The position numbers were made by a program, and so were the translations under genes. Shown here one piece after another: positions 1-60,290 of a stretch of DNA of 64,000 nucleotides (within the stretch, counting starts at the first letter, position 1; the number at the start of each line of letters is the position of its first letter). The stretch covers positions 1,096,665 through 1,160,664 of the forward strand of contig JAQGEQ010000179.1 in the NCBI GenBank assembly GCA_034620365.1, written 5' to 3'. The notes beneath the pieces were generated by a model. It searched no databases, was not told the origin of the DNA, and saw only the letters and a list, made by a program, of their open reading frames with translations. This DNA is from Pegea sp. RAD2-039 (lineage: Eukaryota; Chordata; Thaliacea; Salpida; Salpidae).

Positions 1-1408
1 ACACGATTAGATGATGTCACAACACATAATCAGTTGACGTCACAACACACGATTAGATGACGTCACAACACACAATTAGCTGACGTCACAACACACGATT
101 AGATGATGTCACAACACACGATTAGCTGACGTCACAACACAACACACGATTAGTTGACGTCACAACACATGATCAGTTGACGTCACAACACACGATTAGA
201 TGACGTCACAACACAACACACGATTAGTTGACGTCACAACACATGATTAGTTGACGTCATAACACACGATTAGATGATGTCACAACACATAATCAGTTGA
301 CGTCACAACACACGATTAGATGACGTCACAACACACAATTAGCTGACGTCACAACACACGATTAGATGACGTCACAACACACAATTAGCTGACGTCACAA
401 CACACGATTAGATGATGTCACAACACACGATTAGATGATGTCACAACACACGATTAGTTGACGTCACAACACATGATCAGTTGACGTCACAACACATGAT
501 CAGTTGACGTCACAACACACGATTAGATGACGTCACAACACACGATTAGATGACATCACAACACACGATTAGATGATGTCACAACACACGATTAGATGAT
601 GTCACAACACACGATTAGTTGACATCACAACACACGATTAGATGACGTCACAACACACGATTAGATGACGTCACAACACACGATTAGATGACGTCACAAC
701 ACACGATTAGCTGACGTCACAACACACGATTAGATGATGTCACAACACACGATTAGATGATGTCACAACACACGATTAGATGATGTCACAACACACGATT
801 AGTTGACATCACAACACACGATTAGATGATGTCACAACACACGATTAGTTGACATCACAACACACGATTAGTTGACGTCACAACACACGATTAGTTGACA
901 TCACAACACACGATTAGATGACGTCATAACACACGATTAGTTGACGTCACAACACACGATTAGATGATGTCACAACACACGATTAGATGATGTCACAACA
1001 CATGATTAGATGATGTCACAACACACGATTAGATGACGTCACAACACACGATTAGATGATGTCACAACACACGATTAGATGATGTCACAACACACGATTA
1101 GATGATGTCACAACACACGATTAGATGATGTCACAACACACGATTAGATGACGTCACAACACACGATTAGATGACGTCACAACACACGATTAGATGACGT
1201 CACAACACACGATTAGCTGACGTCACAACACACGATTAGATGATGTCACAACACACGATTAGATGACGTCACAACACACGATTAGCTGACGTCACAACAC
1301 ACGATTAGATGACGTCACAACACACGATTAGCTGACGTCACAACACACGATTAGGTTATGTCACAACACACGATTAGATGATGTCACAACACACGATTAG
1401 ATGACGTC
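1..1408. repeat. 23-bp satellite built on TGACGTCA
   Basis: About 60 head-to-tail copies of a 23-bp unit: the palindrome TGACGTCA followed by CAACACACGATTAGA. A few units carry a 5-bp duplication (ACAAC). Many units show TGATGTCA or TGACATCA, the two C-to-T products of the central CpG; ACACGATTAG also varies to ACATGATCAG. The array is cut by the window edge on the left. On the right it ends at the donor of the 5-phosphatase exon ending at 1419, so it lies in an intron or the 3' region of that gene. Not CRISPR-like, as there are no unique spacers. Confidence 0.95.
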
Positions 1409-1418
1409 ATCAACTTAC

Positions 1419-3145
1419 GTAAATTGTAAACAGCGAGCTAATTGGTTTGTGATCACTCAACCGTAATGATGGATGATCACGATAATTGATTTGTATGACG
1501 TCATCACCGCTACTTCCATCTTTGAATGATCGTTCTTTCCATAGGATCCGATCACACCAAGCAGGTGCTCTACACTTTTCACTTGTGTCCCAAATATCCG
1601 TACCAGGATCATATTTGTAAGTCGGCCGAAAATTCAAACTTCCTTCTTGAAAACCTCCAAACACGTGACACTTTGCCCGTTCGCGTCGCAACTATCAAAT
1701 TTTGACGTCATCAACTCAGTTACAGCGATCATGTGATCACCTGATCGTATTGGAAAAGATTATGAAATTTTTGGTCATGTGACCATTGACGTATAGTCGA
1801 AGCTGCGATGCCATCGATTCGATAGTTTAAATCTCCCATCCAAAACAAAATACTGTTAATGACGTCATAGTAATCGAAAAACCAGATGATGACGTCATTA
1901 ACTTACTCATGATCGTAAATAGAAGAAGTATAAGATGAGAATACCATTCTAGAGCTGATATCATGAAAATCCTGATTCCTTCTAGCAACATATTCAGTGT
2001 GAGCAGCTAAATGTGAATTAATTACACAAATTGATGAATTGAAACATTCAAATCGAATCCCAACTCCTCCCTTATTACCCTGTACAAATTTGATGACGTC
2101 ATCAACATCGAGAAGAACTTACTGACCATTTTGCCGAGAAGTCCAGTTCCAACCGAACATGTTGAAATATTCTTCAAATATTTTACATGATTTTCAGTTG
2201 TAAGACATAATAACATCATCCCAATTAAACGGATCACTTTCACCTATTGAATATGACGTCACAAGACATCACGCCAGATGACGTCATCACTTACAACTCT
2301 GTAATTAGTGGGTAAAGATTTAAGAACTTGTTTAATCCACTCTGGTTCTTTATTAGATTCAGCAAATACATAAGATCCTTTGGATAAATCCAATTCCTGA
2401 AATCTACATCAAACAGTAATGTCAGTATCGCGATGATGACGTCACCACCATCTCACCCGATAAAGTAAAGATCGGGAGGATCAGGATTTGTCATCAACCA
2501 ATCAGATAAATCTTCACTTGGTGATTTTCCGTTTACATTCCATGAACCGATAAACACACTACAAGTGATGACATCAGTGACGCAAGTGTAATGACGTCAT
2601 CACATACTTACTTGATTTTCTGTTTGTTTGTATATTCATGCTGTCGTTTGATGAGAAACATTTGAAGTAGCTCTTCCCTGTTTATTTGCTCCTTGACATA
2701 AAATGCAGATCTGCTTTGATTGGCTTCTACTGGTCTGTTGGTGACGTCATTAGTGATGACCTCATAGCATAAGTATGCTATACCTTTGATGTAGAATCTG
2801 TTGATGATCGAGACTTGTCATCGAGTAGGATTTGTGTTTGATGATGTCATCATTGATGTCATCAGATGAGGTAGACAACATGGAAGTGTGTCTTTTAGAT
2901 GAATGTGGATTTGAAGATTGATCTTCTTCTTGTTCATCTTTATTAGCTCTTTCAGGATAGACTCTTGGTGGGAGATCCTTGGATGTTGAGATACCTCCAG
3001 GAGGTGGGGGAGCTTTTCTGAAAGATTTTGGAAGATCAGGAGTTTCTGTGATTAAAAATTCCGAATTTGATAAAATTGGATCAAACTCCTGAAGGATTAG
3101 AGATGACAAAAGATCTTCAGTGACATCATCTACATTTGATTCCAT
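1419..3145 (-). CDS. Type II inositol polyphosphate 5-phosphatase, OCRL/INPP5B-like (3' truncated by window)
   Basis: Hydrolyses the 5-phosphate of PtdIns(4,5)P2 and related lipids on endosome, Golgi or plasma membranes. Eight exons: 3145-2784, 2734-2612, 2558-2457, 2403-2295, 2243-2127, 2079-1907, 1852-1741, 1691-1419; 457 codons, all phases agreeing. Start chosen as MESN at 3145. The order SWNVNG, FQELDL (catalytic Glu), NSHLAAH, WMGDLNYR, PAWCDRILW and LRLSDHKP is the complete catalytic core. WDTSEKCRAPAWCDRILW and the preceding QHEYTNKQKI resemble OCRL/INPP5B more than synaptojanin or SHIP. The ASH and RhoGAP-like domains of that family would lie left of the window. Every intron (about 50-70 bp) contains TGACGTCA. 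The loop after CDRILWK is longer than in the human proteins and contains GDDVI, encoded by an exonic palindrome. OCRL and INPP5B cannot be told apart here. Confidence 0.93.
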
Positions 3146-3159
3146 GATCAAAAAAATCA

Positions 3160-4735: not shown

Positions 4736-4739
4736 ATCG

Positions 4740-8720: not shown

Positions 8721-8848
8721 CCAGTAATTGATGACGTCACAAACGTTTTTTGCAGCTTTCAATTTAATTCTTAAAAATACTGCAAAAAAACTAAAAATTT
8801 TCTTTTTTTTTAATTGTTGTTCTTTTTCATCGCAATTTCAGTTTCAAG

Positions 8849-11800
8849 ATGTTCTCATTACGTTATCACTTCCTGTGTTACGTCATCATTGCTCTACTAT
8901 TTACCACAATCACAATGACGTCATCAGACGACTTTTACACAGGTTTATTTTTGTTTCTATTGATGACATCACTAGTTGGTCTTAAAAAACTTTCAATTTT
9001 AAATAATTTTTGGTCTTTTTGGGTTTAATTGAGAATCTTTCAAAGCTATTGATGACGTTACAGCTCGATGTCGAGTTATGACGTCACAAGCAAACAGCTG
9101 ATTCAACTTTTACTAAAACTTTGTATGACGTCATCAAATACCAACTGGCTAATTCGATTAATCATTGGTTGCTATGACAAAAAACGACTGATGGTAACGT
9201 CGTTGTTACAGCTTACATCGCGACCATGATGAGAGATCGCGTTGCAAGCGCATGCAAGCACCAAACGCTGAAAATTCGATGTCCCACGATGACGACAATT
9301 GCAATTCAGGTGATGACGTCACACAGCGCTCTGTTTTTGCGATTTCGGCGCCAAATTTCACGTTTCGCTGATTTTCGATGATGCATGAAAGTCGAGATGA
9401 AGTTCAGCTTCAATGACGTCACAACTTTGAGAGTTTAAAATCAATTCTGAAGCTTTTGGTGACGTCATCGCTATTTGTGACGTCATCGTAATAATTTTTT
9501 GGTGACTGGTCACGGTTGAGTAATTTGTGTAAATTAAGCAATAGAGCGGAATAGAAGGTCACTGGAGTGTGACGTCATCATTGAAAACTTGAATTTATGA
9601 CGTCATTTAAGCATGGTGTTTTACAGAACGCGATGTATGGAAGAAGATCATCTTCTAATAATCTGTGTATTGGACCAAGTTCTTCTGATGAAGATCAAAT
9701 ACTCAAAATATCAAATTGTGAAGCTAAGACTTCTGAAATTGTAAGTTGCCAAGCAACCAGCTTCTAAAAAGATTTTTAAAGGTTTAAAAATTGCTTCTTC
9801 ATCTTATCCAAATCATTATAAATATCTTTTGGGGTGGTTAGAGATCAACTGATTCATTTCATTTTATGAAATCTATTTTACGTTTTGATCATAAGATCGT
9901 GTTCCAAAGATCTCTTTCTAAAATCAAGAAGATTTAAATTAAAAAAAAAACTTCGATGTAAGAGATTCAACTTTAAAGATCTCGACTTTTCTTCATTCTC
10001 AGATTTGTTTATCTTCAAACAACAGTTTTAAGTTTTTGAAATTAAATCTGAAAATTTGAAACTTTTAACTTTGAAAAGGAAATAATCAAAAACTAAAATT
10101 GGATTTCTTGAAGAGCAATCTTCAATTAACTTGATATCGTCACGTGATAGTCGATAAAGTGCTCGTGACGTCATCAAATCTGTTGAGTTTCGATAATTTG
10201 CTATAATCGATTTTATCTTGAAAAAGATTTATTTAAAATGGATCGTGCGCTTATGACGTCATTGATCGTGTTTGAGTGCGTGCTTCTCCAAATGGATGTA
10301 TTTCGTTGGCTCACGTTCGTGACGTCATCATCAATAGCTTCGAGCGACTTTTCAATTGTCGATTGTTGTGATGACGTCATCAAATTTCCGCTTCAATGAG
10401 CATCGTAAATGAAATCTTTTTACCATAACGACCTTGAGTTGCTGATGACGTATTTTTCGCAATTTAACAAATTTAATGCCAACGCGGCTGTCTGTGATTG
10501 GATACTCAAAATGTATAGAAGCAGGCCACGTGGTTATCATCTTAATCAGCAATGTTGAAAAAGTTGGCCGAGTTTAGTTGAAAAAACTCCGGCTGAAAGT
10601 TTGAACATTTGGAATTAGTTTAATTTTGGCTTTATGTCAATTTGGCTTTTGTAGGCGATCAAAAAATCTTCTACAAAATATGAGACACACTTAAAACAGA
10701 TTTTGTGTTCCTAAAGACACTCAAAGTATCTCTCATTAAGATTTCAGTTTCTTGGAGTAAATCAAATAGACTTTTTTCATTTTTACCTCTAAATAAAATA
10801 TTTAAAGATTTGAAACTAATTGATGACTTGAAGATTACAAAGTGATGAAGAAGTCTGTGATTTGCTACTACTTCATCTAGTATCATCATAAAAACTTTGA
10901 TTTAATCTAATTGATTGATCTAAAGTAAAAGAGAAGAGTTTCATAAAAGGCAGATGAGTCGATTTAGCATCTTCACTTGTAAAAACTCTTCCATGAAAAA
11001 CATTTTAGAAGGGCGACAAGATGTCTTCAAATTTTTTTTAGATATTTAGTTGTTGAAAATTGTGACAGGAAAATATCAAAGTTTTTTGCGATTCAACTTT
11101 CTTCTCGTTTTACATAATAACTTTACTGTGACGTAATCAGTGGTGTGACGTAATCGCTGTTATGACGGTATAACTAATTGAATGCAGAAGACTACGATGG
11201 AATGTAATGAGAAGAGGTATTGTGAGCTTCTAGTACATCCTAATGTTTTTGGAGGAGACCCTTGCCCTAATTCTACTGAGTATCTTACAATCACTTATAA
11301 ATGCCGATTAAGTGAGTTTTTATCATCTTCTGATCTTTATCTTCTGGTTTTCATCTTCTAACCCTTATCATCAGATCTTTATCTTATGATCTTCATCTTT
11401 CTATCTATACTTCTGATCTTTATTTTCTGATCTTCTAGTTGTAGACGAAATGAAGACTCGTTCAACTTGCTCTGGAACAAATCTTCGTCTTCATTGCCCT
11501 CAAAGAATCCAAAATAAAAAGATTCCTTACATCATTACCATCTATGACGTTACAAACCTACAAGACGCTGAATGTGACACGAAAACACTTCCACCAACCA
11601 TGTCATGTGAGATTGACGTCATCACCGCTTACATAATGATGACGTAATCGTTTGTAGATTGTGAAGAAGCTCACGAATTTTTGATGAAATTGATTTCAGA
11701 AAAATGTCAGAGGAGGACGAGATGCACAATTTTGTTGCCAGGCGATCTCTGCTACAGTTCCGTTCGCGTCTCTTACGCTTGCTGTAAGTGACGTCATCAG

Positions 11801-14800
11801 TTACTGTTAATTATTGTGACGTCATCTGTCAATTTATCAATGTTTACTGATGTAAGCCAGTGGGTTGTCACAATAACCGCTAGGTGGCGGTAAAGGGACA
11901 GAAAAAGTATTTTTACTCTTTTAACAAATCTAAACTTTTTTTTAAATTTTTTTTTCGAGAAAAAAATTTTTGGATGAAAATTTTAGGTCGTTGAAAATGG
12001 AAGAGAAAAAAGAAAGAACTTTTCTAGACTTCAAATTGTTCGTTATCGCGTCCAAAACGCTATTTGAATGTTCTTTAACTTTGTTCTTCATTGAGGTTTT
12101 AGTAAAAGCCAGTAGATGCCAGAACACAGTTGATGACGTCATCAGTGACAACATCAGCAGTTTGGAAGACTGCAGAAAATGAGAGTTTTTGAATTTTAGT
12201 ATTGGTGAAATAACAAATGTTTGACGTCATTTTAGAGTTGTTGTAACAATTGTTGAAACTATTACGTCACGAATTTGCGATAATCGTTTCCCATGACGAC
12301 GTCCGGTTACTTACTAGATGGTGTGTTCAACCAACTGTAACAATCACTTGCAAAAGTTCGCGCGTTTCTTGTACACGTGTGTCTTACTACTGAGTGTCAG
12401 CTAGTGGATGTTTGGTGAGCAATGACGTTCTTTCAAGTGTGATGTCATCAGTGAACACTTTTTTCAAAAGTGATCAAAGTTATTACGAGAAATAAGATAA
12501 ATTTTTGGCCGGAAATCATTCATCTGAAGCATGCAGATGTTGAAAAAGTTGTCGATCTTAAAAATATGATATAAGATGACTAATCTTCTTCTGATCTTCT
12601 TCTGATCTTCTTTTGATCTTCTTCTGATCTTCTTCTGATCTTCTTCTGATCTTCTTCTGATCTTCTTCTGATCTTCTTCTGATCTTCTTCTGATCTTCTT
12701 CTGATCTTCTTCTGATCTTCTTCTGATCTTCTTCTGATCTTCTTCTGATCTTCTTCTGATCTTCTTCTGATCTTCTTCTGATCTTCTTCTGATCTTCTTC
12801 TGATCTTCTTCTGATCTTTCTCTGATCTTCTTCTGATCTTCTTCTGATCTTCTTCTGATCTTCTTCTGATCTTCTTCTGATCTTCTTCTGATTTCAATAT
12901 CTTCTTCTGATCTTCTTCTGATCTTCTTCTGATCTGGATCTTCTTCTGATCTTCTTCTGATCTTCTTCTGATGCTTCTTCTGATTTCTTCTGCTTCTTCT
13001 GAATCTTCTTCTGAATCAGGCCAAAAGAAAAACTCGTTGGGGTAATTGAGAAGCTTAACGTTTTAGTAAATTTACCTGAAGACCACGTTTTCTGCCAAAA
13101 CAGGCCAAAAGAAAAACTCGTTGGGGTAATTGAGAAGCTTAACGTTTTAGTAAATTTACCTGAAGACCACGGGATATTTAATTTGACAGAATTTTTTTGT
13201 AGATTTCCTGTTCGATTTCCAAAGTCCTTTTTTTTGCAGCGAAAAAGTGAAAAAATTTTGTTTAAAAAATTTGCAAAAAAAAAAAGGAAAATTCCCGAAA
13301 ACCACAATTATGCAAATTATTTTTTTCATTTTGTTGCAAATTTTCTGTAATAGAAAATTGTTTAACCAACCAGAAAGCGACAGTTAAAATTCTTATCATA
13401 AAAAGTAATTTAAAAAATTCCGGAAAATTGAGAATCAAATCTTGTTTGAAATGAGTCGAAAAACGTTAACACTTTTTTCATGTGATACTCAACTTTAGCA
13501 TGATCAGTGAAGCTGAACGAAGGACTTTTCAGAAGAGTTAATAATGAAAAACGAAAGATAGAAGTTTTAGAGAATTTTGATGAATAAGCTGTTCACATCT
13601 TTTGCTTCTTTTTTTCTTTAGTTTTTGAAAGGATAATTTTTTTTATTGATTAAGAATAATTTTGATGAAAACAGTTTTTAAATTTCAAATATTACTTAAA
13701 ATAGAATTTTATTAAAAGTTAAACAAAAAATATTTCCTTGAAAAAGATGAAGGTGATGATTAGGTCAACATTAAGATCAGGTGAAAGGGTGAATCACGTG
13801 AACATATTAAAGATCAGATAAGATAGATATTAGAAGAAGATCAGAAGAAGATCAGAAGAAGATCAGAAGAAGATCAGAAGAAGATCAGAAGAAGATCAGA
13901 AGAAGATCAGAAGAAGATCAGAAGAAGATCAGAAGAAGATCAGAAGAAGATCAGAAGAAGATCAGAAGAAGATCAGAAGAAGATCAGAAGAAGATCAGAA
14001 GAAGATCAGAAGAAGATCAGAAGAAGATCAGAAGAAGATCAGAAGAAGATCAGAAGAAGATCAGAAGAAGATCAGAAGAAGATCAGAAGAAGATCAGAAG
14101 AAGATCAGAAGAAGATCAGAAGAAGATCAGAAGAAGATCAGAAGAAGATCAGAAGAAGATCAGAAGAAGATCAGAAGAAGATCAGAAGAAGATCAGAAGA
14201 AGATCAGAAGAAGATCAGAAGAAGATCAGAAGAAGATCAAAAGAAGATCAGAAGAAGATCAAAAGAAGATCAGAAGAAATTATTAGTTAAAACTTTTTTT
14301 AATGTAGAAAAAATCTGTTTTAGTTAAATTGAACAAAATAGTTTGAAAAACTCTTAAATCTAATTTTTAAATTAATTCAATTTGTTTGAAAAAATAAAGA
14401 ATATTTGACATCGAATTGAAGATCAGAGAAGTTTCAAGACTTACAAGTTCGCTGAGACGTTGTTGATTGAACCATTGAACGATTGCTACAACATAATAAG
14501 GACCCCAACAGATGAGGAAAGTGATTGTGATAAAGATTGTAACAAGTTGGGATAGACGTTTCGCTCTTTCTAGACTTTTACGAACTAAACTTTTTCGCTG
14601 AGGCGACGTAGAAGTTTGCATGTTCCGAAATCCAGCTGAGCGAAGTTCCGTTTCTACTCAAAACACGAATTGAAACAAATTGATTTTGAAAATGAGTCAG
14701 ACCGCGCGCTCTTTTAGCCAATTTGCTGATCTTGAACGCTATGATGATGAAGCAGATGATGATGATGATTACAGGAAGAATAAAAGTCATCATGAAGGTA

Positions 14801-17800
14801 TAGAAGAGGAAGATCTTTCTCTTCTCTTCTTCCAAGACATTAAAATCGACGCATTGAACAATTTGTTGTTGAGGACAATTACAAGGAAAAGGTTTATACT
14901 GACTCACTTCAAACACAAAAGACTACAAAGTGCAAAAATCAATTGATGATGATTAGGATCAAATGATACTTACAGCTGGGATTGAACCGATAAAAATCTT
15001 ATTAATATGATTTTCGTTTTTATTCAGCTTTTTCGAAATTAGTTTTTGTTTTAGTGAATAATTACTCAAGCGGAAAGCGTATAAATAAAGCTGATGATGA
15101 CGTCACGTAACTCGTCAAGATAACATCATCAGTATTAGTTTTCAGAAGAAGTTGTTTTTAAATGAAATGTAATTGGTTTAAATAATTTGAAAAATGGTTC
15201 TAAGGGATTTGAGATCTGTAATTAAAAATTAATCTTTAATTTTCAATTTGAAGTTTGATGATGTCACGTGTGACCATGTCACGTGTGATTAAAAAAAAGT
15301 TTCAAAAGAGGAAGTAAAATATTGTTTTGATTCTAGATTTATATGTGATTTGTAAAAGTTGTTTTTAACAAAATTCACAAACCTCAAATAGAAACTTTGT
15401 TAACATCATCTTAAGTTGACGATGTCATCTGATTGTTTGGAAAATTTTCAAGTTGACAATGAATATTTCAGTCAAAAACAAATTTCATGTTTGGAAAAGC
15501 TCCTAAAAATGTTTTGTTTTTCTGACATCATTTTCAACTTACTTAGGCTTAGGTATGTTAATTATCCGATTTGATGACGTCACAAAAGCTATATCGTTTA
15601 GTTTGAAAGTTGAGTTTTGAAAATCTTTTGGCTTTTGGAAATTTTAGTTTTAGTTTTGTTGAAAAGAATTTTAATGACTGTTGTGACGTCATCACAAATA
15701 AATTGTGACGTCACACCTTAGCGATCGAGGCTGGCGCTTCAACTGTGTTGTATAGCGTCGATGACGTCATAATAGAATGAAAAGAGACCAGCTACTTTAT
15801 TATTCGTTTTGTTTTTCTTTTTCATTTAAACTTCACTCAAATACAAATCGCAGCAACAATTTTTTTATTGGAATTTTCAGAATTTTTTTTTATTTAAATT
15901 TTGTTTTTGTTTTTTTCTGTTGTTTTGATGTCTCTCATCTCCTTAGCAACCAAACATATGATTCAATGATAAGTGGAAACATCCTTACAAATCGCTAAGC
16001 AACGTCTGTGTCACGTCACATCGTGATGATGACGTCATGATTCTTTGTTTGACTTTTAACCTTTTTTCAGTGCCAGAAAAATTTTTGACCAAGAATCGAC
16101 CCGATCAAGTTTACAAGATTGTTCGAGAATCAACTACACCACCATCAACTACGTCATCATCTACTACGCCATCATCTACTACGTCATCATACACTACGTC
16201 ATTATATACTACGTCATCAACAACGAAATCTTTTTCAGGTTTGCCATAAAATAAATTGCTTCTTGACGTCATCGCTGTTGTGACATGACGTCATTGCATG
16301 TTTTCCATTTCTTCATCTAATGGAAACGTGTAAATGGCGTCATTGTCATCGTTACCATGGTGACGATCACTACGAATGTAATCAGATGATGATGATGTCA
16401 TCTTCACTGTTCGTTGAGAGTTCATTTCAATGTAACCACCAATCGCTGATGTTGTAGGATTAGTTTTAAAATCTGCTGAAGATGTTATTAGATCGCGTTT
16501 CCATTTCACTGTGACGTCATCAGAAACTTTGTCGTAAGGAAAATAGGTCATTGGAGCAACTGAAAAATAGCGCATGATGATGTCACTAGTTGATGATGTC
16601 ACTAGTAGATGATGTCATTCACCGTATTCCAATGATGATCTAGTTGATGTGGGTTGGTCTTTGTTCTTCATTGGTGTCGGAAAGCGACCTCTGCTGGTCA
16701 GCTGTAAATGATGACGTCATCAAAAATTGCTAATGACGTTGTCAAGAAAATCACCTGGTCATTAGCTGCAATTATCTGAGATTGGTTTCCTTCTTCATCA
16801 GTAACTACAACTGTGATATGATGACGTCGTAACTGTTGATGACGTCACTAATTTAATGCTTCTTTTCATGATGATGTCACTAACCGTATTTGTCGTTGGT
16901 TGACATGTAATGACGTCATCAGTAGCAACGCGTTTTGGTCGTCGACGGCTTACGACGATAGTAATGAGAACGATGATTGCAATTACGACAAGTGACGTCA
17001 TACACACGACCACAAGAAGTATGACGCCATCATTCACTTGCTTCTTTTCGTTACATTTGGTTTCCATGACAACCGACCTTTGGCATTTGTTCGACACGCG
17101 ACAACTTACAACTTTAAATTGAGATGACGTCATCAGCTGTGACGTCACAATTGGCAGCCAGTTAGTGCTCGAAGTTTCTTCAAGACACAAATCTTCTGGA
17201 TGCTCTATCAATTCTGCACCAGTGACGTCACAAGCAATTGTGAAGTTTCTTGTTGAGCTGAAACCGTACAATTTATGATAATGAGGTCATCATAATGTCA
17301 TCGTAAGACTGACGAATCACATGCAGTTGAAGAAGTTTGTTGGATCAATAAAGATTTGATCTTAGAAGTTGGGATTTTAGATGAACAAATGTTTGAACAA
17401 ATTTTTTCTGATCTTGTACAATCTTCTTCACACTTCTTCTCCTTCTTTTCAATTCCTTTTAAACTTTTTCCGGGACATAATTTACTTAGCTGGTTGTTAG
17501 GTGACAAACATCTGTTGAAATATCGATGGTTGTCATGGTCACGATGACGTCACGCGCGCTTCACCTTCTAACTTGGAATTTGTTGCCTTGACAATCACTT
17601 TGACACTTGGTGACGTCACTCCATGAGCTCCATGACGACGTACACGCTTTAGTGACGTCACACTTGGTTACACGTGTTAATTGACAATTGTGATTGGTCG
17701 AACAAACCCCTGAAGTCTAATGGCATCATAAAAAGGTGTTTTGGGCGTTTAGGGTGCTTACTGTGAGAACCCCAGAATGACAATCCCCTCTACAAGCGGT

Positions 17801-19781: not shown

Positions 19782-19969
19782 TGAAGAAGTCATTGTTCAG
19801 TCATCTTCGTTTGATGACGTCATCACACTTACCTCATCAACTACGTTATCACCAGTTTGATTTCATTTCTTCTTACTCATTCAATCATAGTCACGTGATA
19901 GATCGCTTTGAAGATGACGTCATCAACAACTATCTTATCAGGTGGTATTTTTGCTGCTAATAAAAAAAT

Positions 19970-27673: not shown

Positions 27674-28384
27674 ATGTTTAAAAATTTATTGAGAAAAATG
27701 CCATTTTATGCAGTTCATGTTGGCAGGAAAGCTGGTGTGTTTCAAGATTGGTCCAGCTGTAACAAACAAGTTCAACATTTTAAAGGAGCAAAATATAAAA
27801 AGTTTGCAACACATCAAGAAGCAGAAGAATTTGTGAAAATTGGATTTAAATGTATGAACAAAAGAAAAAAAGGAGACCCCCCCATTGGTGAAAGTGGGGA
27901 AGTCCCTGAAAAAAAGAAGAAATATGAAGATGGTGAGATTCCGAAAGTTTATACTGATGGAGCTTGTTCTAATAACCAGTCTATAAAAGCCTCTGCTGGT
28001 TTTGGTGTTTGGTGGGGTGACAATCATCATTTAAACCTTTCATGTAAATTAGCAGGAAGACAAACCAATCAGCGAGCAGAATTAGCTGCAATTGATGCAG
28101 CAATCAAACAAGCAATTGCAGCAAATATCCGCAAGATCTGTATCTGCACTGATTCAAAGTTCTCGATCGACTGCATCACAAAGTGGTCACAAAATTGGAT
28201 CAAAAACAATTGGAAGAAGTCTGACGGCAGTGACGTCATTCATCGAGAAGAATTAGAAGAGATTCTGAAGTCATTGGAAAAAGTTGAAGTCATCTGGAAA
28301 CATATCAAAGGGCATTCTGGTAACTATGGCAATGAGATGGCTGATAAGCTTGCAGTTGAAGGAATTAACAACAAATTAACTTGA
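27674..28384 (+). CDS. RNASEH1: Ribonuclease H1 (single exon)
   Basis: Cleaves the RNA strand of RNA:DNA hybrids in nucleus and mitochondria. N-terminal hybrid-binding domain (FYAVHVGRKAGVF, YKKFATHQEAEEFV), a basic linker, then the RNase H fold with VYTDGACSNN (Asp), QRAELAAI (Glu), CTDSKFS (Asp), GHSGNYGNEMAD (His, Asp): the DEDD set is complete. 236 aa from the first ATG at 27674. A second in-frame ATG at 27698 starts MPFYAV, exactly at the hybrid-binding domain, so the first nine residues (MFKNLLRKM) could be a mitochondrial presequence. No introns, unlike most neighbours. TTTCAG at 27652-27657 lies 16 nt before the ATG. Poly(A) signal at 28425-28430. One exonic palindrome encodes SDVI. 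Confidence 0.95.
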   Translation: MFKNLLRKMPFYAVHVGRKAGVFQDWSSCNKQVQHFKGAKYKKFATHQEAEEFVKIGFKCMNKRKKGDPPIGESGEVPEKKKKYEDGEIPKVYTDGACSNNQSIKASAGFGVWWGDNHHLNLSCKLAGRQTNQRAELAAIDAAIKQAIAANIRKICICTDSKFSIDCITKWSQNWIKNNWKKSDGSDVIHREELEEILKSLEKVEVIWKHIKGHSGNYGNEMADKLAVEGINNKLT

Positions 28385-40409: not shown

Positions 40410-42675
40410 AATTTACGAATACAAGCTGTAGGCAGCTGCCAATTGTACGCAGAGGACGTTTGAGCTGTAATTTCGTAGATGTTGCTGAGCTTGGAGACTT
40501 TTGCGACTTCTTTTGCAATGAAGGTTTTTTCTATCAGATATTTAAAAGAAACAAATTTTAGATCTTAAACTTTTAGGTTTTGTACTGGTTGGAAGCTGGA
40601 ATACAACTTGTGTTTTCGACTTGTTACAAAATAAAGCAGTTTTCAACAACGCAGCCCCAAAATGTAAACCAAAAAGTAAATTTCTCTAATTTAGATTTAA
40701 TTTAAACAATTTATAGATTTGAACTTATTTTTAGATAAACCTTTTTGTCTGGATTTAAAGTCTGAAGAACATTTAGGAACAACAGAATGTAGTCATGGTA
40801 ACTTGTTAGGAAGTGAATGTGTTCGCAAGTGTTTCGATGGTTTGCGGATTGTTGGCGATTCCCGCGCTGTGTGCATTGCCCGTGACGGAGTATTGAAGTG
40901 GAACGCAAGTCTAGGGGCTTGTGTGGTGACAGCTTTTGATTCAGTTTCAGGTATATTTGTAGAAGATATTTTTAATTGAAAAATTTGAACTATTTGAATA
41001 GAACATTTAGAATTAAAAAGCTTTTAATTTTGAGGTTTTGTCATAACATTTTTTGCTTAATATAGATTTAAAAGGTTTAAAAAATGCAAAAAACTATTTT
41101 AATTATTTTGATTGTCAGTTAAAAAATTTTCTTCAAAACATTTGAATAAGTTTTATCAAAAAAGCTGTTATTAAAAACTCATTGAACAATTTGGGAAAAA
41201 AAGATTTTATCTTTTCAACGAAAACTTTATTTTGGTCGACAAAGACTTTGTTGAGGAAAAAGCTTTAAAATTGTAAAGTTCAATTTCTATAAAAACCTCG
41301 GTTGTTATATCAACTACAAAAATCATTTTGTAAACAAATAAATTGAAATTGGCTGATATAAATTCAAGTTTGATAAGAAAAATTCTCAAATTTAATTGGT
41401 TTTTTGATAGCAGATTTTAAGCCATAAAATCTGTCAAAATATCAAATTAATTTTTTTGTCTAGATCAAAATTGTCCAGCTCTCAAACATTCTCCTTTTAT
41501 CAGCAAGATCACTTGTACATCTGGAAACCGAGTCGGCAGTAAATGTGTTTTTAAATGTGCAAATGGATTTGGATTAGTTGGTGGTCGTATTAGTATCTGT
41601 CTGCCATCAAAAATTGGGAATAGATGGTCTGGTAGCCATCCAAGATGTAAAGGTAATTTTCAAACAAAATACTTTTAGTTAATTTCTATCTAATTATAAC
41701 TTCTGCTTTATAATAATCGCTTATCAAATCAGATAAAAATTTAAAGTAACTTCAAAACTTTCAGCTAAAGTTTGTCCCTCTTTACCACCTCATATTGAAA
41801 ATGGTGGATTAGTATGTAGTAAAGGGAACCAAGCGAAATCTCAATGTTATTACAAATGTGATGATAATTATTTTTTGAATGGGATTTCACAAATCAAATG
41901 TTATACTTCACGAAATAACTTTTTGGGCTTCTGGTCTAATCCTGTATCACCCAAATGTTTGAGTGAGTTTTTGTTGTTGCTTTAAAACTTAATACTTGAA
42001 ACAGAATTCAATATTTTTAATAAAAATATTTTTCACTCAATAATTTGCAGAATGCCGTTCAGATCAGTTTTTCTGTTCTTCAACTAAACATTGCATTGAT
42101 ATACTACAAATTTGTGACGGAAAACTCGATTGTCTGGATGGTGAAGACGAAAAAACGTGTCTTGGTAAGTATTCTGATGACATCATCGCTTTTAATAACT
42201 CATAGCGTTTTAAGATGGCGAGATGATGACGTGTGGAGATCATCAAACTGGAAATAGCGGATTTCTTCGAAGCCCAACTCTTACATCAGGTTTCTATTCA
42301 CATTGTACTTACTGTAACTGGACAGTTGAAGTCTCAGTTGGGTTTCGTGTCAAGGTGACGGCGTATTGACTTCATTTGTAAGTTGTGACGTCATCAACGT
42401 TTTTACAGATACATTTTCTGTCATTCGATTTGGAATACTCTGGACCTGATTGTGAATTTGACGGCGTTGCTATAGGTGATTTGCCAGCTGGTGTCGAAAC
42501 TATTGACGCTTTTGATTGGAGTATGACGTCATCAGTGACGTATCGACTTTGTGGGAGTCGTCGCGTTCGCAAAGCTCTTTACAGCAAATCAAATCGAATT
42601 GGAATTACTTTCTATTCCAATTTTAATTTAGAAAGAAGCGGATTTAGTTTGTTGTGGAGTAAAACACGTTTGTAA
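40410..42675 (+). CDS. Sushi/LDLa/CUB secreted protein (5' exons not found)
   Basis: Probably extracellular, with complement-control-like architecture. Exons 40410-40523, 40577-40675, 40735-40950, 41464-41652, 41765-41962, 42051-42164, 42215-42354, 42409-42675; 445 codons in phase after two bases of a split codon. Four sushi/CCP modules with four Cys each (starting SCRQLP, FCLDL, NCPAL and VCPSLPPHIENGG), one LDL-receptor class A module (KCRSDQFFCS, CDGKLDCLDGEDEKTC), then a C-terminal CUB domain (CGDHQTGNSGFLRSP, CNWTV, FLSFDLEYSGPDCEFDGVAIG). Ends soon after the CUB with no TM, so likely secreted. The signal peptide must lie on an upstream exon that I cannot find. The CUB exon contains an exonic palindrome giving WSMTSSVTYRLCG. 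Poly(A) signal at 42764-42769. Confidence 0.88.
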
Positions 42676-42779
42676 TCACCATCATGTTTCCATAACAATC
42701 AACGACAATATCTACTTGTTGAATTTCGTTGCTCTGAATTTTTCATATTTTTCAACGCTCGTGAATAAATCTTTAATCA

Positions 42780-44540
42780 AATATTTTTTAGATAAAATTT
42801 AGCTAAATATTTAAAAATTCTCAAAATAATTTTATGAAAGTTGGAAAAAAATGATCAAAATTCGTTTTATAAAAAACAGAAATCTGTAAAGAATTCTTTA
42901 AACCCATTAAGTTTTAAATACTAAAAACAAATAAATAAAAATCTGAAAAAATTAAGCAATTTTAAATCTGTATTATCTAATTTAATTCTTACGATTAAAA
43001 TTTGATGAAACGACTTAACTCAATAAAAATAATTTTTTAACTTTAATTAAAAGATTTGATCATTATCACATGATATTAACATTTAATTCACAAGAAAATT
43101 AATTATTAACAATATTTTCTACAAGATTATTTTTACTATGTAAGTTTGTCTTGTAAAACTTTGTTTCATGTTTTTACTAAATTCTTAATTTCCTTAAATC
43201 GTTTTGACATAAAATCTAAAATAATTAATTTTTTGTTTTCATTAATAACTTTAAAAGTTATATTTTGTAAAATCAATTATGAGAATTTGAATAAGAAATT
43301 CGATATCCAAATTTCTTTTCCATTAAAATTTGATAATTAAAATTAGTTTCTGAGAAATTCTAAACAAACATAGAGGTTCTTAAGTTCGTTTTTTTTTTGA
43401 AGTTGATAATTTTTGTTGAAGCTCTACAAAACAAAAAGTATAATAAAAAAATTGAGTAGTCTAAACAACATGTTTTATGCAAAACGTAAGAAAAGAAAAA
43501 AGTATCGATTATAAAATTAACAAAAATTTCAACACAAAATTGTTTTAAAACTTGCCTCTTCTGGAAAATTAATAGATTTAAAATATTTGTAATTAAATTA
43601 TATTAAAATATTCGTTATAAAAACAATGAAAGTTGTCTATTTTATTTCTACTGTTTTCCACAAACTTTATTTTTTAAAGAAAATATTCTAATTTTCTAAA
43701 AATCTTTAGTTTTAATTTTTTTCATTTAGAATATTTTTTGAAAGATTTCAAAACATTAAAAAAATCCTTTTCCTCTCATTAAAAATCAATTATTGAAATA
43801 TAGTATTCACATTTAACCCTTTTTATACATTAAAAAGCAACTTAAAATGTTGACAATATTAATGCCTTAGTTTATGAAAATATAAATTACCTTAATAATT
43901 TTTGAAAAGATTTCAAGTTTCTTCAAAAGAAACTTATCAGTAACAATCCAAAACAAAGTTATAAAAAGCAAAAATGTAATTACAAATGATGATTAGTTTC
44001 TTTCAATTATTTTGATAGATTGAACATTTTTGAAATTAATTTTATTGCTATTCGTTTGTTTTTTGAAATTCAATTTTCATCTTAAACAATCAGTTGCAAA
44101 AAGATATATTTTGTGGGAAAAATTGAAATAGAAGAATAGTTCATGTGTTAGTAAGCAAATAAAAATCATCTCTTTTAGTTATTAGTTTATAACTTATGGT
44201 TTTTAACAAGTGTTATTTTGATTAAAGCTTTTTTATAATTCTAAAGAACAAAAATGTTACTCTTCTTTAGTAATTGATTTGTAAGTTTATCTTTAAATAA
44301 AATAATGTCTAAAATAAGATATCATCTAATCATTTCACTTTATTGAAGAATAAATCTCACATTTACATAGTTAAAGTACTTAGTGTATAAAAAAACAAAA
44401 TGTATTTTGTGAAAATAGTTTTGATAAAAAATAGAAAATAATTTTCACCAAAAAATCTTCGATTCATTTCATTTGAAATTTCTCTTTTTTTTTATTTGCA
44501 GATTTTAAAATTTGTAACTGACAACATTTGAAAATGACCA
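42780..44540. other. AT-rich intergenic DNA
   Basis: Between two genes converging on it. Nothing recognisable and no palindromes. Confidence 0.6.
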
Positions 44541-44549
44541 CTTCTTCAG

Positions 44550-47500
44550 TGATGACGTCATTTACCCAAATTTCCATGAACATTTTTATTATTTAATGCA
44601 GATTTTCTAAAAAAAATTCTGACTATCGAAAAATAACCTTATCAAAAAAATTTAAAAATCGTTCGGAATCACAACAATATGCTTGCTGATTGGTTGATCG
44701 TGAAATCGTGCCATCGTTTCTTTTTTCATCGCGTCAATCGATTCAAGAGCTAATTGACATTGAAGTTTAGTCACCTGATCGCTTTCAACTTTGTATCTCA
44801 TCTTTAAATCATCTTTCCAACGTTTCAAAACATCTGGGATCATCTACATCTCGCCATGATGACTTTATTCATTTTTTAACCACATCACTTACTTCAATGA
44901 CGTCACAACCCAATTTTTCAACAATCGATCTGATGACGTGAATAGCCGCGCGACGAACTTCAGGCGTTTCCCCTTTCATCAGGGAGCATAGGCACTCAGT
45001 GAGCTGTGCATGACGTCACAAAAGCGGTAATGACGTCAATAGAAAAGTTATGATATCACAAACCTCGTATTGATGCGATGAGATTTGATGAGGTATCAAA
45101 GGAAGAAGATTTGAAAAGATTGAAAGACTAGATGTTTGAATTTTTAAAGAGTTATTTCGACATCCGAAAAAAATCAATTGAATCAATTGTTTTGAGTAAT
45201 GCGCTGACATTTGACCTGTAATTATGACGTCATGAACCGGTCAGAATAACCATGAAGACGTCACCTAATTGGTTGATAACACGGCTTAGAACTTCTGAAA
45301 ATTTCATAAAGACTTCATCTTCCGGATCTTTTGTGGTCAACAGGCTCTTCATCTTCTCAATTAGAGTCTCAAGGAAAGATCTAAAAGACCAAAAGGTTAA
45401 TGGATTGCGCGATATAGATGATGACGTCACTTGTTGTCGGTGAGATTTGGATGAAGAAGAATAATTTCAGCTAAAAGTTGAAATGACGACAAATAAACAA
45501 ATGAGTCAGTTTCTTGAGGTAGTGACGCCATCACTAACGTATAGATTTGTTGATAATGTTTCAAAACTGAAGCATCGCGCAATTTTAACAACTTTGTCAC
45601 ATGACGTAAAGCAGCGGCTCTGTAAGATAATAAAAGATTTTGTTCCGCATGAAGGAGCTAGAGAGTTCTTACCTAATATAAGCTTCTGAAGCCTGAAAAC
45701 ATTTCAAACTTTCATCAATTGAAGTAAAGAGAACTTTTCGGTCTCTTTTTTGTTTTGGCGAATGAAGTATTTCTATTTTTTTTCTTTTTGGGGTTTTTGA
45801 CTCTTCAAAAAGTTTCAAATGCTTCTGTAAATAATTGATGATGTCACTAATACGACAATAGCGTCATGACGTCACCTGCATTCCAGCAGAAAGTTTTGAA
45901 ATTTCAATTTGAGATGAAATATTTTTTGTAGAGATCAACGATATCAAATCAAATGCGATTTCACCGACTTGTGACGTCATCAAAAACTTCTCTGTCACTT
46001 TCTGTAATAAAGTCATATGAAATTAACCACATTTTGGTTGTGACGTCATCCAACCTGAAGAAGAGGAAGAAGTTTTTGAAGATGAAGAACATTTTTCTCA
46101 TCGAAATCTTTCATCAAACAAATCCCTAAAATCGCCAATGACGTCATCAGTGTTTCGTTTGTTGACGTCATCAGTGATTCTTCAACAGCGCGGTGCAGAA
46201 AAACTTTGATGACGTCACAAATTTTCTCGATATCATCCTCAATGATGTCATCAGCATCATATTTTTCACACATCAACGAAATAAGCGCCAAATTTGATAA
46301 ACGCGCGCGGCTTCTTTTCAAATCGTCTAAATTATCAACTTGAAAATTTCGTAAATTCTGAAAATTAAAAATTCAGAAAAGTAAAAAAAACTTTGACATC
46401 GACTCACAGAGATTAATGACGTCAGCATTTCAGCGCGAAGTTCTTTGACGTCATCAAGTAACTTTGCAATGGCATTGATGACGTCATCTTCTAACAACTG
46501 CTCGATGCTAAAATAATTTCAATAAAAAGGAAAACGGAGCTCATGTATTACTAACCACGTGATCGACGGTGGTGTTGCTATGGTAATGATGACGTCAGAA
46601 CCATCCATTTGCAAATTGCGTTTCAATTGATGAAACTTCACGAGTGATCCATCGCTTCGATGAATTGTGACGTCATCAATATCACAAACTCCTGCTAGTG
46701 ACGTCATCAGCGCAACAGATTGTTGAGTCGAAAGTAGTCGAAGAAAAGCCACCATGAGCTCGACGAGAAGTCGCTTCAGAAAGCTTGTCGAATTCCTACA
46801 GTGACGTCATAAATGATTACGATGTATTGATAATGTCACAAAAGTGAATGATTTACTGATAAGCATCGACTTACAAGCAGCGACGAAACGCAGTGAAAAC
46901 GACAATAATGTAGGGAGCGATGACGTCACGAGCTAATTCTTTTTGAAGCGGATGACGAATGACACAAAATAGACGATGAAGGATTTGCAGTGATGACGTC
47001 ATCAATACAGGCTGTTCACTCAAGCGTGACATATCAGTTGCAAGTTGGAAAGGATGTAGAATCGGTTGAAGAAGTAGTAAAGCCGATTGCACGGTTTTGT
47101 GGATCAGAAGAAGATAAGAAGAGATGATAACGTGGCATAAAATTGTTGTAGATTTGAGATGTCTGAAAAAGTCAAAGTGACGTCATCAACACCGACTAGT
47201 GACATCATCAAACCTTTTTTCAAACAGCGAATCATTTTGAATATGCAAATAAAGCTGATGACAAATACTTTGTTGATAAAGATTAGATGAAGATCTTGGA
47301 AATGTGGTGAGGATCTTTGAGATAATTTTTGAACTATTTTCCTCATTTATCAATTTGCCATCTTCAAAAATATGTAAATTAGTAAATAGAATTTTAACCA
47401 ATCAATAAGCTCACCTAACATCTCAATGATTGAACTACTAACAGAAATCATCCCGTTGCTAAGCGACACAAGTCGCGTCAAAACACTTCCACAAGCATCT

Positions 47501-47720
47501 CGAAGCCATCTAGGTGATGAACAATGAGTTGATCCTTGTAACATCAAGACACATTTTGAAATTTCTTGGATGTTGACTTGAAGATGAAGATCATTTTCAA
47601 AGTAAGATTTCACCCAAGAAAAAGTCGAATCCGGAATCTGTAAGAAGAACTCTTTTAGGGAAACTCTTTAGATGGTAGATCTCATTTGCATATCTCATTA
47701 CATGAGGTCTGCTGACGTCA
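44550..47720. repeat. Dense TGACGTCA field over TANGO6
   Basis: I count more than 20 exact TGACGTCA copies in 3.2 kb, in introns, at splice junctions and in exons. Two donors are formed by the palindrome itself (GTGACGTCAT at introns 45430-45381 and 45875-45825). The 5' third of the gene (47.7-48.4 kb) has almost none. Confidence 0.9.
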
Positions 47721-48877: not shown

Positions 48878-48889
48878 TAATAGTAAAAA

Positions 48890-54151: not shown

Positions 54152-54189
54152 TTAGTTTATTATTATTCTAAATTTCTGAAAAAGTTTAA

Positions 54190-54940: not shown

Positions 54941-54954
54941 ACAAAAATACTTTA

Positions 54955-55645: not shown

Positions 55646-55649
55646 GATA

Positions 55650-57050: not shown

Positions 57051-57066
57051 AAATAAGAAACTTCAA

Positions 57067-60000
57067 ATGACACATTTTCGACAAACTTTTATGGTAAGTT
57101 TTCTGTTTAATTTCTTTTCATATATTTTTAACTTTGTCTTGTTTAACTAAAAGCTTTGTTGTTTTAAGCTTTAGATATAATTGTAAGAGGGTTTGTAGAA
57201 ACTTGGAATAACAATTTGTTTTTATTTTAAACTTTATTTTCTTCTATTTATATTTAAGAAATGAAAAAGTTTTCTCTATATTATTTAATTCAAAATTCTT
57301 TTATTCATTCAATGCGTGGATGAGAGCTACAATTTCAACAATTCTTATAGTGAACATGGTGAACTAGATGTATTTACAAGGATTATGCAATATTTTGCAC
57401 GAACACTTAACTGCAATGTAGTGCACAGAGCTTCCAACTTTATATCTTCTATCATCTCAAACCTTCTTGCAGTTGGATTACAGACACACGCCATAACGCC
57501 CAGCTTTTAAATCTAAACATTATCAATTTTTAGATTTGTTGAATTCTTTGAATATTTTTTTGTTATTTTTATTAATTAATAATTTTAATTTGTTTATAGG
57601 GAGTTAATGGGTTCGAAGATCTGAAGAGATATACAAGAGCAGGAACAGATTTTGGTAGAGAAATTGTTTCAGTTCTTAATGAAAGGTTTATCTGATCTTC
57701 TGTTGTTCATCTTTGAAAACTCATTATTTAATTTTCATCTTTTCAGGATTCAGTTAGAACAGATGTACTCCAAAAGTCTTCGACGACTTGGACAAAGAAT
57801 ATCAAAAGCTTCTTGTTTAATCGTTCCTTCACCTTTGAGTAATGCTTGGAACTCAGTTGGCCTTGAGATGGAAAAAGAAGCTGACATTCACAAGTAATTT
57901 CTATCTTCATTATTTTGATCTTAATCTTTGTATTTATAGAGAATTTGGAACAGATCTTCTTGAAAAATGTATCAAACCTCTTTCAATCATCACTGAATCT
58001 CAGTTAAGATCTCGCCGAAATGTAAGTTGAAATCAAAACTCCTTAATCACACAAATCAATTCATCTTTAATCTTTTTTGTCAAGTTTTAAACTGCTTTTC
58101 CCAGAGTTTTTCCAATTATACTGACTTTCAAACCCAACTTGTGCCAAATATCTTCCCATCTCTTCTTTTGAAGATTGAAATATCACTTTATCTTATAATT
58201 ATTCTGATTTTCAAACTCCCTAACAGTTTGTCTCAAGCTTGCGTCAGTTTATTTTAATATATTCATTTCAGGCAGAACAAAGAGTAGAATTGAGCTATAA
58301 AGCTTGGACAGATAAATACACAGATCACATTAAATTGAAAAAAAGGTTGCATGTTCAAAGAAGAGAGAACGAGTCTTTAATTGATCAAATAGATGGTCCA
58401 CGAGTAAAAAATGATAAAGAGCAACAAAAGGTTTGTTTGACAAAAAAAATTACGACAAGTCAACAATACGTCGTCATGGTTGAATGACCATCAATCAGTT
58501 TGCTAAATTGCTCAATGAGGAAATATTACAATTTTGATTTCTTCCCTTAACAGCTAATCAACAAGCAGCAAAAAACTGAAGAGTCAGTTCATAAAACTGA
58601 TGTTGAATATTACAACTCATTATTAATGTTAGAAAAGTCGAGACAAGAATGGGAATACAGCAGCTTTCAATGTTGTGATACAATTGAGGTATCTTTCAAC
58701 TAGTTACTTTATCTACTAATGTTTGTTAATCTAGAGTATGGAAGATGATCGGTATCGCGAAATATGTCACGTCATACGTCGATACTCTGACGTCATGTAC
58801 GACTTGCCGTCGAAAATAAAATCGGTTTGTAACCTAGTAACCGATATTATGACGTTATAAGGAAGTGTGTGTAGTGTTGTCGACGAATTGATGATAGTGT
58901 TGACAACTTGTCATCTTCAAAAGAAATTTCGGTTGTGGCCGAGAAGTTTCGCGGATCAGACTACTTGTCTGAACAACTACTCTGCGATTATTATGTTAGT
59001 TTTAATAACAAAAAGATTAAGAAAGTTTTGGTTTAATTAAAAGACATTCAGCAAGAAAATTTCAATTTTCCGATGAATGTTGGAAGAAGAAAGAAATCTT
59101 TACAGAAGCTTCTCGAAAGATTCATCAATGATTATCAAAAAGAAAATTGTCATCGCGATGGATTAAAGCGAATTGAAGACGCTTCAATTAAATCTGATGT
59201 TGATATTAGCAGTCGGATTTTGCAAGTGAATAATTTGTCTTTTTTAAGTGCAAAATGGAAAAAGAACATTTTGTTGCAGTCGACTTCAATGTTAAACTTC
59301 CTTGATGTCATCCGTTTTAAGCTAAATCGAACTCTCGCTACAATTGAAGGCTCTTCATCTAAACCAAGTCACGTTTTTGAAAAATGTATCGAAGAAACTA
59401 CAGATCGTCAGGTTGCTTAGCAACCAAGTACTTGGTGACCACTTAGCAACCGTTTATTTGAAGGGAATCAAATTTTCTACGCTCAAGACACGGCCTGGTG
59501 ATGACATAGAGAAAATAAAAGAGAAAGTTCGTCGTCGTTCCAAAGGTGAATACACGACTTCATAACTAGCCACATCTATTTAATGACGTCATCGTCCGTT
59601 TAATGAATCGATCGTCAGATTAATGACGTCATCATCAATTTACTGAAGTAATCATTTTCTTTTAGGAGCATCTAGAAATAGATCTTCTTCAGCTGAAAGT
59701 CAAAAATCTTCAAAAGTTTCTCAAAATTCAAGTTTGCTCTTCTCTTCCTTTTAACCACATTAATATTTCTCATCTGCATTTTAAGGCTTCTATGACGACA
59801 AAGTCGCTTCTACGTCTTCACGTTCTAGGCCTCTGTCATCTGTGCTTCCTTCTATGACATCATCCGTTGCTTCTGAAGCTCCTCCAAGCTATGATGCAAT
59901 CAGTGAGAGATTACGTCATCACTTTGTCATCTGTTTGACGTCACTTGTGCAGATGATGAAGTCACAGTTGATGAGGCAGTATTGTGTCAGTGTGTAGCAC

Positions 60001-60182
60001 TTTACAATTATGAGGCGAAACGTGCAGATGAGATGACGATTTATGTTGATGACGTCATTCAAGTTTTTGAGAAAGGTGAAGATCAGTGGTGGCGTGGTCG
60101 GCTGCTAGATGACGTCACAGAAGCGCGTGTCACTTCTGGATTGTTTCCTGCCAATTACGTTGAAATACTCAACACCATCTGA
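57067..60182 (+). CDS. Nostrin-like F-BAR/SH3 protein
   Basis: Membrane-curving endocytic adaptor. Exons 57067-57093, 57600-57685, 57747-57893, 57940-58021, 58272-58430, 58554-58688, 58735-58824, 58875-58998, 59044-59411, 59464-59545, 59666-59731, 59786-59902, 59953-60182; 570 aa (human nostrin about 506). The F-BAR starts with FEDLKRYTRAGTDFGREI and LEQMYSKSLRRLGQRISKA and runs as charged helices to about residue 270. A middle helical part may be HR1/REM-like. A Ser-rich linker leads to an SH3: ALYNYEAKRADEMTIY...WWRGRL...SGLFPANYVEIL. The distal part of the SH3 has extra residues (LLDDVTEARVT) encoded by a palindrome. Exon 8 end at 58998 was chosen because it keeps the phase. CIP4/FNBP1-type proteins are the alternative. 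Poly(A) signal at 60398-60403. Confidence 0.88.
59412..59463 (+). other. 52-bp intron made largely of X-box-like inverted repeats
   Basis: GTTGCTTAGCAACC at the donor, AAGTACTT in the middle, and CTTAGCAACC near the acceptor. The donor GT is the first two bases of the palindrome. It can fold on itself. Confidence 0.6.
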
Positions 60183-60290
60183 AATTATCAGTTGATATCT
60201 TATCCGATAATTTCACAGCTTTTGATTTTTGTTATTTTTGCAATTATCTTCCTTTCGCTTCCAATGACGTCATCACTACAAATCACATCC
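59575..60290. repeat. TGACGTCA cluster over the nostrin-like 3' exons
   Basis: Exact copies in the introns and in the SH3-coding exon, continuing into the 3' flank. The 5' half of the gene is almost free of them. Confidence 0.85.

Follow-up and report, generated by a model that had tools for sequence, protein, structure and literature searches.

The question raised by this locus is why a single 8-bp palindrome, TGACGTCA, should be written 135 times into the final 64 kb of a 1,160,664-base contig (JAQGEQ010000179.1, assembly GCA_034620365.1) of the salp Pegea sp. RAD2-039. Within this stretch of 64,000 nucleotides, referred to as the window, TGACGTCA is the most frequent 8-mer, and the runner-up palindrome, AAATATTT, has 43 copies. 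Thirty-six copies of TGACGTCA lie at or before position 1496, in a 23-bp satellite and at its edge, and 99 lie beyond. From the base counts of the window (order-0 expectation), about one copy per 130 kb would be expected, corresponding to about 800 in 105.7 Mb. In the entire genome (105,744,746 bases in 387 contigs), we found 27,792 copies compared with 969 of the reversed control word, an excess of about 35-fold over the order-0 expectation, and TGATGACGTCATCA occurred 1,972 times compared with 0 for its reversed control. A 14-mer form is present six times in the window, and a 17-mer form occupies 104 places in the genome, of which the 100 listed ones are spread over 62 contigs. A sequence-only reading of the window had described many dozens of copies outside the satellite against a rough expectation of one per 120 kb, and these numbers bear it out, excluding both a genome-wide count close to background and an enrichment confined to this one contig. 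Exons, introns, intergenic DNA and unrelated genes all contain TGACGTCA, as judged from open frames and by eye rather than from transcripts, so that the octamer is over-represented across the genome, coding DNA included. Our answer, given tentatively, is that the word is a DNA-level site for a bZIP dimer, accumulated in islands that this protein would keep open.

The distribution of the copies is highly uneven. Of the 99 copies beyond the satellite, 94 fall into five clusters and the remaining 5 are single, and counts in 230 bins of 1 kb gave a variance-to-mean ratio of 5.08. Sampling of contig C1 on a 200-kb grid (17 stretches, each of 10 kb) yielded 10 copies in 170 kb; these stretches lean towards sparse DNA because two grid points (near 2.1 and 3.7 Mb) were swapped for cluster-centred stretches. 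Stretches placed on clusters (L015, L016 and L024) contained 32, 19 and 54 copies, and the densest sample, picked around a known match to the 17-mer form, had 24 copies in 2 kb of contig C214. Even the sampled sparse DNA, with 17 copies in 204 kb (34 on both strands), exceeded the 3.5 both-strand copies expected from a third-order Markov model about tenfold. The sampled islands lie on C1 and on C29, the contig of the window, plus small samples of C214 and C24; stretches L001-L004, chosen for holding the 14-mer, were excluded from pooled counts. From this sample of one genome, in which the gene content read comprises tankyrase-, DNMT1- and cyclase-type genes, islands would number hundreds to thousands genome-wide. 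The earlier wording that the palindrome pervades genes therefore gives way to kilobase islands: in L028, a lysine-methyltransferase-type frame contains 6 copies, whereas the clathrin-adaptor-type frames on either side (one named by Pfam, the other, at 7178-7765, identified by eye) contain none.

The sites within the islands do not share a common sequence beyond the motif. Allowing up to three mismatches, the satellite unit had 231 + 8 matches in the genome, less than 1% of the TGACGTCA copies, and 59 in the window, and with these 239 genome matches the satellite was rejected as a source. All but five of its listed genome places are at C29:1,092,465-1,094,998, just upstream on the same contig; the listing is partial and omits the 59 units of the window, so that the reading as one array rests on the listed places together with the window. 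Of the 56 satellite unit cores within the window, 30 are intact and 25 carry a CpG transition, a count inflated by duplication within the array, indicating that the word decays where it is not maintained. Masking of tandem repeats with Tandem Repeats Finder (TRF) removed 30 of 202 copies in dense segments and left 172. For positions 15001-20640, all listed matches elsewhere (356 in all, partly listed) fall on a minisatellite near 16129-16224, and among the 40 of 86 blastn matches between islands that were listed, the alignments are shorter than 50 bp. With spacers unique where tested, a dispersed repeat or transposon was likewise rejected. As part of the explanation put forward here, and at the same tentative level, the sites would have arisen by independent point changes. 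The minisatellite at 16129-16224, a 15/30-bp array of ATCAACTACGCCATC inside an island, has similar arrays on many contigs (C284, C247, C29 and others). In L024, a tandem array of about 20 bp with the unit CACTAACACGTGACGTCAT (8840-9200, read by eye) has cores that differ between copies and forms a local record of gain and loss; a long frame of short peptide repeats, YMMQKSPNTGPQYEPQSPR, without the palindrome lies at 5627-6928 between two motif-dense stretches.

The structure of the sites indicates that the unit is the 8-mer with independent flank preferences of its half-sites, rather than the 14-mer. A pyrimidine follows the core in 93% of 245 sites (T 0.65, C 0.28), and the next two bases are preferably C (0.46) and A (0.63), with weaker preferences beyond; R-TGACGTCA-Y followed by C and A is accordingly the preferred form. 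A purine before and a pyrimidine after the core are typical of ATF/CREB sites. TCA extensions on the left and right occurred together at 22 sites, compared with 26.4 expected under independence. Since decaying 14-mers would give a positive association, the sites are not decayed 14-mers, and an ancestral 14-mer element was rejected. The flanks look like those of a dimer whose half-sites contribute independently, as in an additive dimer site.

Exact copies in the dense set (51,550 bp) number 211, compared with a total of 95 for the 24 one-mismatch neighbours, of which 31 are CpG transitions; in the sparse set, the corresponding counts are 16 and 80. The choice of segments after motif counts had been seen by itself raises the ratio of the dense set. 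By position (1/8, 2/7, 3/6 and 4/5), the 95 neighbours divide into 8, 30, 13 and 44, and neighbours that are GC-ward at the A and T positions of the core number 11 compared with the 211 exact copies. A general excess of CpG-centred palindromes was rejected, because among the 64 such words the runner-up in the dense set has only 6 copies compared with 211. Genome-wide, the CpG-transition forms TGATGTCA and TGACATCA have 5,503 + 5,567 = 11,070 copies (reversed controls 1,373 + 1,300 = 2,673), so that decay products are fewer than the 27,792 intact sites. If all 24 neighbours are taken as equally likely, the scaled advantage in islands might roughly be as high as about 4 per site, which is an upper guess. 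A spacing of 8-14 bp between two cores does not occur in the set of 269 sites, compared with 10.6 pairs expected after jittering of positions (minimum 3 in 500 trials), and 30 pairs are 15-25 bp apart compared with 17.2 expected (null maximum 30), partly owing to local tandem arrays. The gap fits dimers that exclude one another. Helical phasing (a weak 9.9-bp peak, p 0.022 against jitter) was not relied on.

In coding DNA the word overrides both codon choice and amino-acid sequence. Eleven open frames in islands (6,477 bp) contain 49 copies of TGACGTCA, or 7.6 per kb, a density like that of the islands overall (202 copies in 34,550 bp), while six frames outside islands contain 1 copy in 5,058 bp. 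All are hand-picked long open frames taken from DNA, not from transcripts: five of the 11 dense frames had Pfam matches over the cut-off (BTB, PARP, SAM, methyltransferase and ankyrin), and a Pfam scan of three of the six sparse ones gave an RNase H1 match, a clathrin-adaptor match and one frame without a match. By reading frame the 49 copies divide into 26, 23 and 0, with none in the frame that would read the stop codon TGA, and shuffling of synonymous codons in the 11 frames yielded 5.0 copies on average and never more than 14 in 1,000 trials. These numbers indicate that the signal acts on the DNA and bends the proteins. Accordingly skewed are the dipeptides DV (35 compared with 11.0 expected, 24 of the 35 written GACGTC) and TS (47 compared with 16.1 expected, 30 of the 47 written ACGTCA); protein-level selection for DV or MTS is insufficient on its own, since the codon choice for the same dipeptides is skewed as well. 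Five stretches matched in Pfam or PDB contain 8 copies in 1,125 bp: 5 in one BTB domain, 1 in a second BTB domain and 2 in the methyltransferase.

The surroundings of the sites retain CpG. For these counts, the motif and its one-mismatch forms were removed before GC and CpG were determined (masking). Masked islands had a GC content of 0.339 and a CpG observed/expected ratio (o/e) of 0.91, compared with 0.279 and 0.65 in sparse DNA. In masked 1-kb bins matched for GC (0.30-0.40), CpG o/e was 1.06 with at least three motifs (n=23) and 0.59 without motifs (n=21), so that CpG is not depleted at matched GC, as in CpG islands. Over 140 bins from nine sources, some of them chosen for motif density, CpG o/e climbed from 0.61 in the 82 bins without a motif through 0.86 and 1.03 to 1.11 in the 16 bins with at least six. 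The genome contains a DNMT1-type frame (L072), which matched DNMT1 chains in PDB with a best E-value of 1.9e-203, and with such a gene present, unmethylated islands are a natural reading; the islands would thus be free of methylation. In all, 11 matches to PF00145 were found in the genome, a copy number that appears high for an animal; seven lie in frames of 832-873 amino acids that run without interruption. The contigs carrying PF00145 matches are C57, C249, C32, C52, C262 and C49, and in the one copy read on C32 (L073) the catalytic region appears altered. The spliced leader SL1 was searched for with up to two mismatches and not found, and an 18S gene of the genome looks, at first impression, similar to that of an early-branching nematode; a DNMT1 would agree with clade I nematodes of the Romanomermis type (PMC8821070). 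A separate word, ATCGCG, occurred 37 times in dense segments of the window, L015, L016, L024, L028 and L029, compared with 7.5 from a first-order Markov model and 2.3 when scaled from sparse DNA.

Which protein could read such a site? TGACGTCA is the canonical full cAMP-response element (CRE), a site of ATF/CREB bZIP proteins, whose central CpG is critical for CREB binding; methylation inhibits binding, deamination yields TGATGTCA, and most canonical CREs in the human set studied lie in CpG islands (PMC1796609). A profile search of the genome gave 12 bZIP_1 matches in six frames. The exonic copies argue against ordinary promoter or enhancer use of the CRE, but it does not follow, as had been supposed, that they rule out CREB/ATF, because a bZIP dimer reads DNA regardless of reading frame. 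We propose that TGACGTCA serves as recognition site for a candidate ATF/CREB-type bZIP dimer and that point changes would build it to near saturation in kilobase islands, whether the position is exonic, intronic or intergenic. The dimer would densely occupy the arrays, probably in the germ line, and its occupancy may hold the island open and protect it from CpG methylation that depends on DNMT1. As CpG methylation inhibits CREB binding, an occupied island would shield the sites it contains from decay, and weak selection, or drive, for occupancy would favour the gain of further ones. The data directly show the enrichment, the islands, the independent origin of the sites, an action at the DNA level across coding frames, the retention of CpG and the presence of DNMT1-type and bZIP genes; from these patterns we infer the reader protein, the lack of methylation, a role in the germ line and selection as the cause. 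Bound, open, unmethylated islands kept by weak selection are the best explanation we can offer, yet one we would put at somewhat below an even chance. Selection for occupancy is favoured since it could account for the exact core, the additive flanks, the spacing gap, the retention of CpG and the indifference to reading frame.

Several observations weigh against selection for occupancy by such a protein. Unmasked CpG o/e exceeds 1 in five 1-kb bins of the window, at 36, 37, 39, 40 and 42 kb, which contain 0, 0, 1, 0 and 2 motifs. The GC content at third codon positions (GC3) of island frames is raised (0.35 compared with 0.24, motif masked), which fits GC-biased gene conversion equally well, and CGCG words are also enriched in islands, so that the motif is not the sole island signal. 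The PARP and SAM stretches contain no TGACGTCA, indicating that protein constraint prevails in places. Three core pairs 11-12 bp apart are among the listed genome places, making the spacing gap relative, not absolute. The bZIP matches, read without comparison to other animals, showed nothing unusual. Finally, island borders seem not to need to coincide with gene borders: a first cyclase catalytic domain has its exons (L027 9427-9612; L024 3-152 and 580-759) ahead of the first TGACGTCA, none being found before L024 position 961, while those of a second catalytic domain (L024 3508-3678 and 4014-4214) lie inside an island. If domain order and strand place these exons in one gene, as we infer, the border of the island seems to fall within a transcription unit, and the island is not simply a gene mark.

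The main rival to selection for occupancy is recombination-linked drive, which we regard as unlikely but as the strongest of the alternatives: chromatin at bZIP-bound sites would become accessible to meiotic breaks, as at ade6-M26/CRE, and in hot islands biased repair or conversion would spread the site and lift GC. In fission yeast, the bZIP pair Atf1-Pcr1 binds the M26 heptamer ATGACGT, which creates a meiotic hotspot, a precedent in which a bZIP dimer reads a CRE-like word and opens chromatin; the sites studied there are single ones (PMC9775316). Drive would explain the raised GC and GC3 better than selection for occupancy, and the border that seems to lie inside a gene agrees with it as well. 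However, break-initiating alleles are normally lost by conversion, not gained, and GC bias alone cannot fix the A and T positions of the core, where GC-ward neighbours are so few. According to the same review, moreover, the full CRE in ade6 neither is bound nor stimulates recombination (PMC9775316).

Two further alternatives appear improbable, and equally so. In one, the islands would be chromosome-structural arrays, serving as landing sites for a homologue-pairing, kinetochore or cohesin-loading protein in the manner of C. elegans pairing-centre motifs or of dispersed centromeres. C. elegans pairing centres are built of a short motif, a zinc-finger site, clustered in otherwise unique DNA. The islands share the clustered short motif and the unique DNA with them, but consist of a palindrome. 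As far as contigs rather than chromosomes can tell, they are also not one region near a chromosome end (PMC9071541). Clusters of a short motif, separated by unique spacers and spread over many contigs, would suit such arrays, as would a satellite with the same core; the copies are very many for one region per chromosome, and exonic copies are not expected. Periodic A/T clusters (PATC) are another DNA signal of C. elegans, pervading introns of germline genes and tied to expression domains. In contrast to PATC, the signal here is a fixed palindrome, also exonic, and has no clear helical phase.

The other is a mutation or repair bias like that discussed for the highly iterated palindrome HIP1 of cyanobacteria, in which a replication or repair pathway would create and preserve the word without function. 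The comparison with HIP1, made beforehand because both are highly iterated palindromes, stands: in HIP1 and alternate HIPs, too, one palindrome is hugely over-represented genome-wide, such a ratchet was proposed by Elhai, and DNA methyltransferases are discussed as part of the cause (PMC4390886). In the present genome, a DNMT1-type gene is present, and a CpG lies inside the word. A bias of this kind would explain the exons well, as the density in exon frames is similar to that of islands overall, and the dominance of one exact word. It would not predict islands instead of a uniform density, and a bound protein is suggested by the additive flanks together with the spacing gap. The word is TGACGTCA, not GCGATCGC or another GC-rich palindrome, the host is a eukaryote, and deviations, which in HIP1 are biased to the first and last base (PMC4390886), affect mostly the central CpG here, with only 8 of 95 at the outer positions. 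With central mismatches and islands, TGACGTCA was not filed as a HIP, though HIP1 is the closest phenomenon.

Still less probable are ordinary cAMP-response enhancers that are merely more numerous. The sequence is that of the CRE exactly, bZIP matches exist, one island covers part of an apparent adenylate cyclase gene, and as in CREs the commonest one-mismatch form is TGATGTCA/TGACATCA and the surroundings retain CpG (PMC1796609). However, up to 24 copies in 2 kb, recoded coding frames and arrays running through gene bodies and exons are unlike CRE sites; a survey of regions around transcription starts from worm to human gives a positional bias of CREs only in vertebrates, and CREs in the human genome are stated to reach 25% of the expected number (PMC1796609), compared with about 35 times the order-0 expectation here. 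That the sites are dispersed copies of a repeat, a mobile element or the 23-bp satellite is very improbable, because, although some short tandem arrays hold the motif, most copies survive tandem masking, flank halves are independent, and the searches for satellite units and shared spacers gave the results described above.

The coordinates of the features in the window are collected in Table 1. The frame on the minus strand had a TMEM154 match under the Pfam cut-off (17.7 compared with 30.3 bits), the 483-codon frame had no Pfam match, and no tRNA or Rfam family was found in the window. Two 11-bp minisatellites, ATCTTCTTCTG (12583-13014) and AGAAGAAGATC (13832-14278), with long open frames in several phases lie beside islands. 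The very end of the contig (62030-64000) is filled by a 20-bp satellite, TCCTAAACCCTGTTTGTACC, that lacks the palindrome; this could represent either a chromosome-end repeat or a mere assembly break.

Table 1. Positions of the TGACGTCA islands and associated features within the window.
Position	Strand	Feature	Basis or remark
1..1414		23-bp satellite, unit ACACGATTAGATGACGTCACAAC holding the core	TRF; right-hand part of a longer array on the contig
1703..2749		Cluster of 9 dispersed TGACGTCA, adjoining the satellite	Position listing
8732..12229		Island with 19 TGACGTCA	Masked CpG o/e 1.05 for 8.6-12.3 kb
15098..20456		Island with 35 TGACGTCA	Masked CpG o/e 1.19, GC 0.367
16798..17286	-	Open frame, membrane-protein-like, 6 TGACGTCA read as DV or TS	
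18330..19781	+	483-codon open frame, 7 TGACGTCA (MTS, DVI, LTS in the protein)	
28231..28238		Lone TGACGTCA within RNase H1-type coding frame (27623-28384)	
42386..47720		Island with 25 TGACGTCA	Masked CpG o/e 1.12 for 44.5-47.8 kb
59584..60272		Island with 6 TGACGTCA	Masked CpG o/e 0.89

Among the titles and abstracts listed in searches of the open-licence literature, none reported such palindrome saturation in a eukaryote, and the 14-mer occurred in no paper. The islands point to a DNA-reading system without known animal counterpart. It is conceivable, if short of probable, that this animal lineage carries a genome-wide DNA punctuation, in which a palindrome readable by bZIP proteins saturates gene-scale unmethylated islands and rewrites codons and protein; this would be a eukaryotic counterpart of HIP or Chi arrays, with site density rather than promoters defining chromatin or recombination domains. 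That one 8-bp word prevails over codon choice and over the encoded amino acids, even in recognisable domains, is a rare case of a non-coding code beating the protein code. If the islands are unmethylated, they would provide a natural test of how an animal that has a DNMT1-type enzyme can define hypomethylated domains by sequence alone, and would show whether CpG islands are nucleated by transcription-factor sites. Should the force instead be recombination drive, the islands would bear on the hotspot paradox. Whichever force holds, about 28,000 sites offer great statistical power within one genome.

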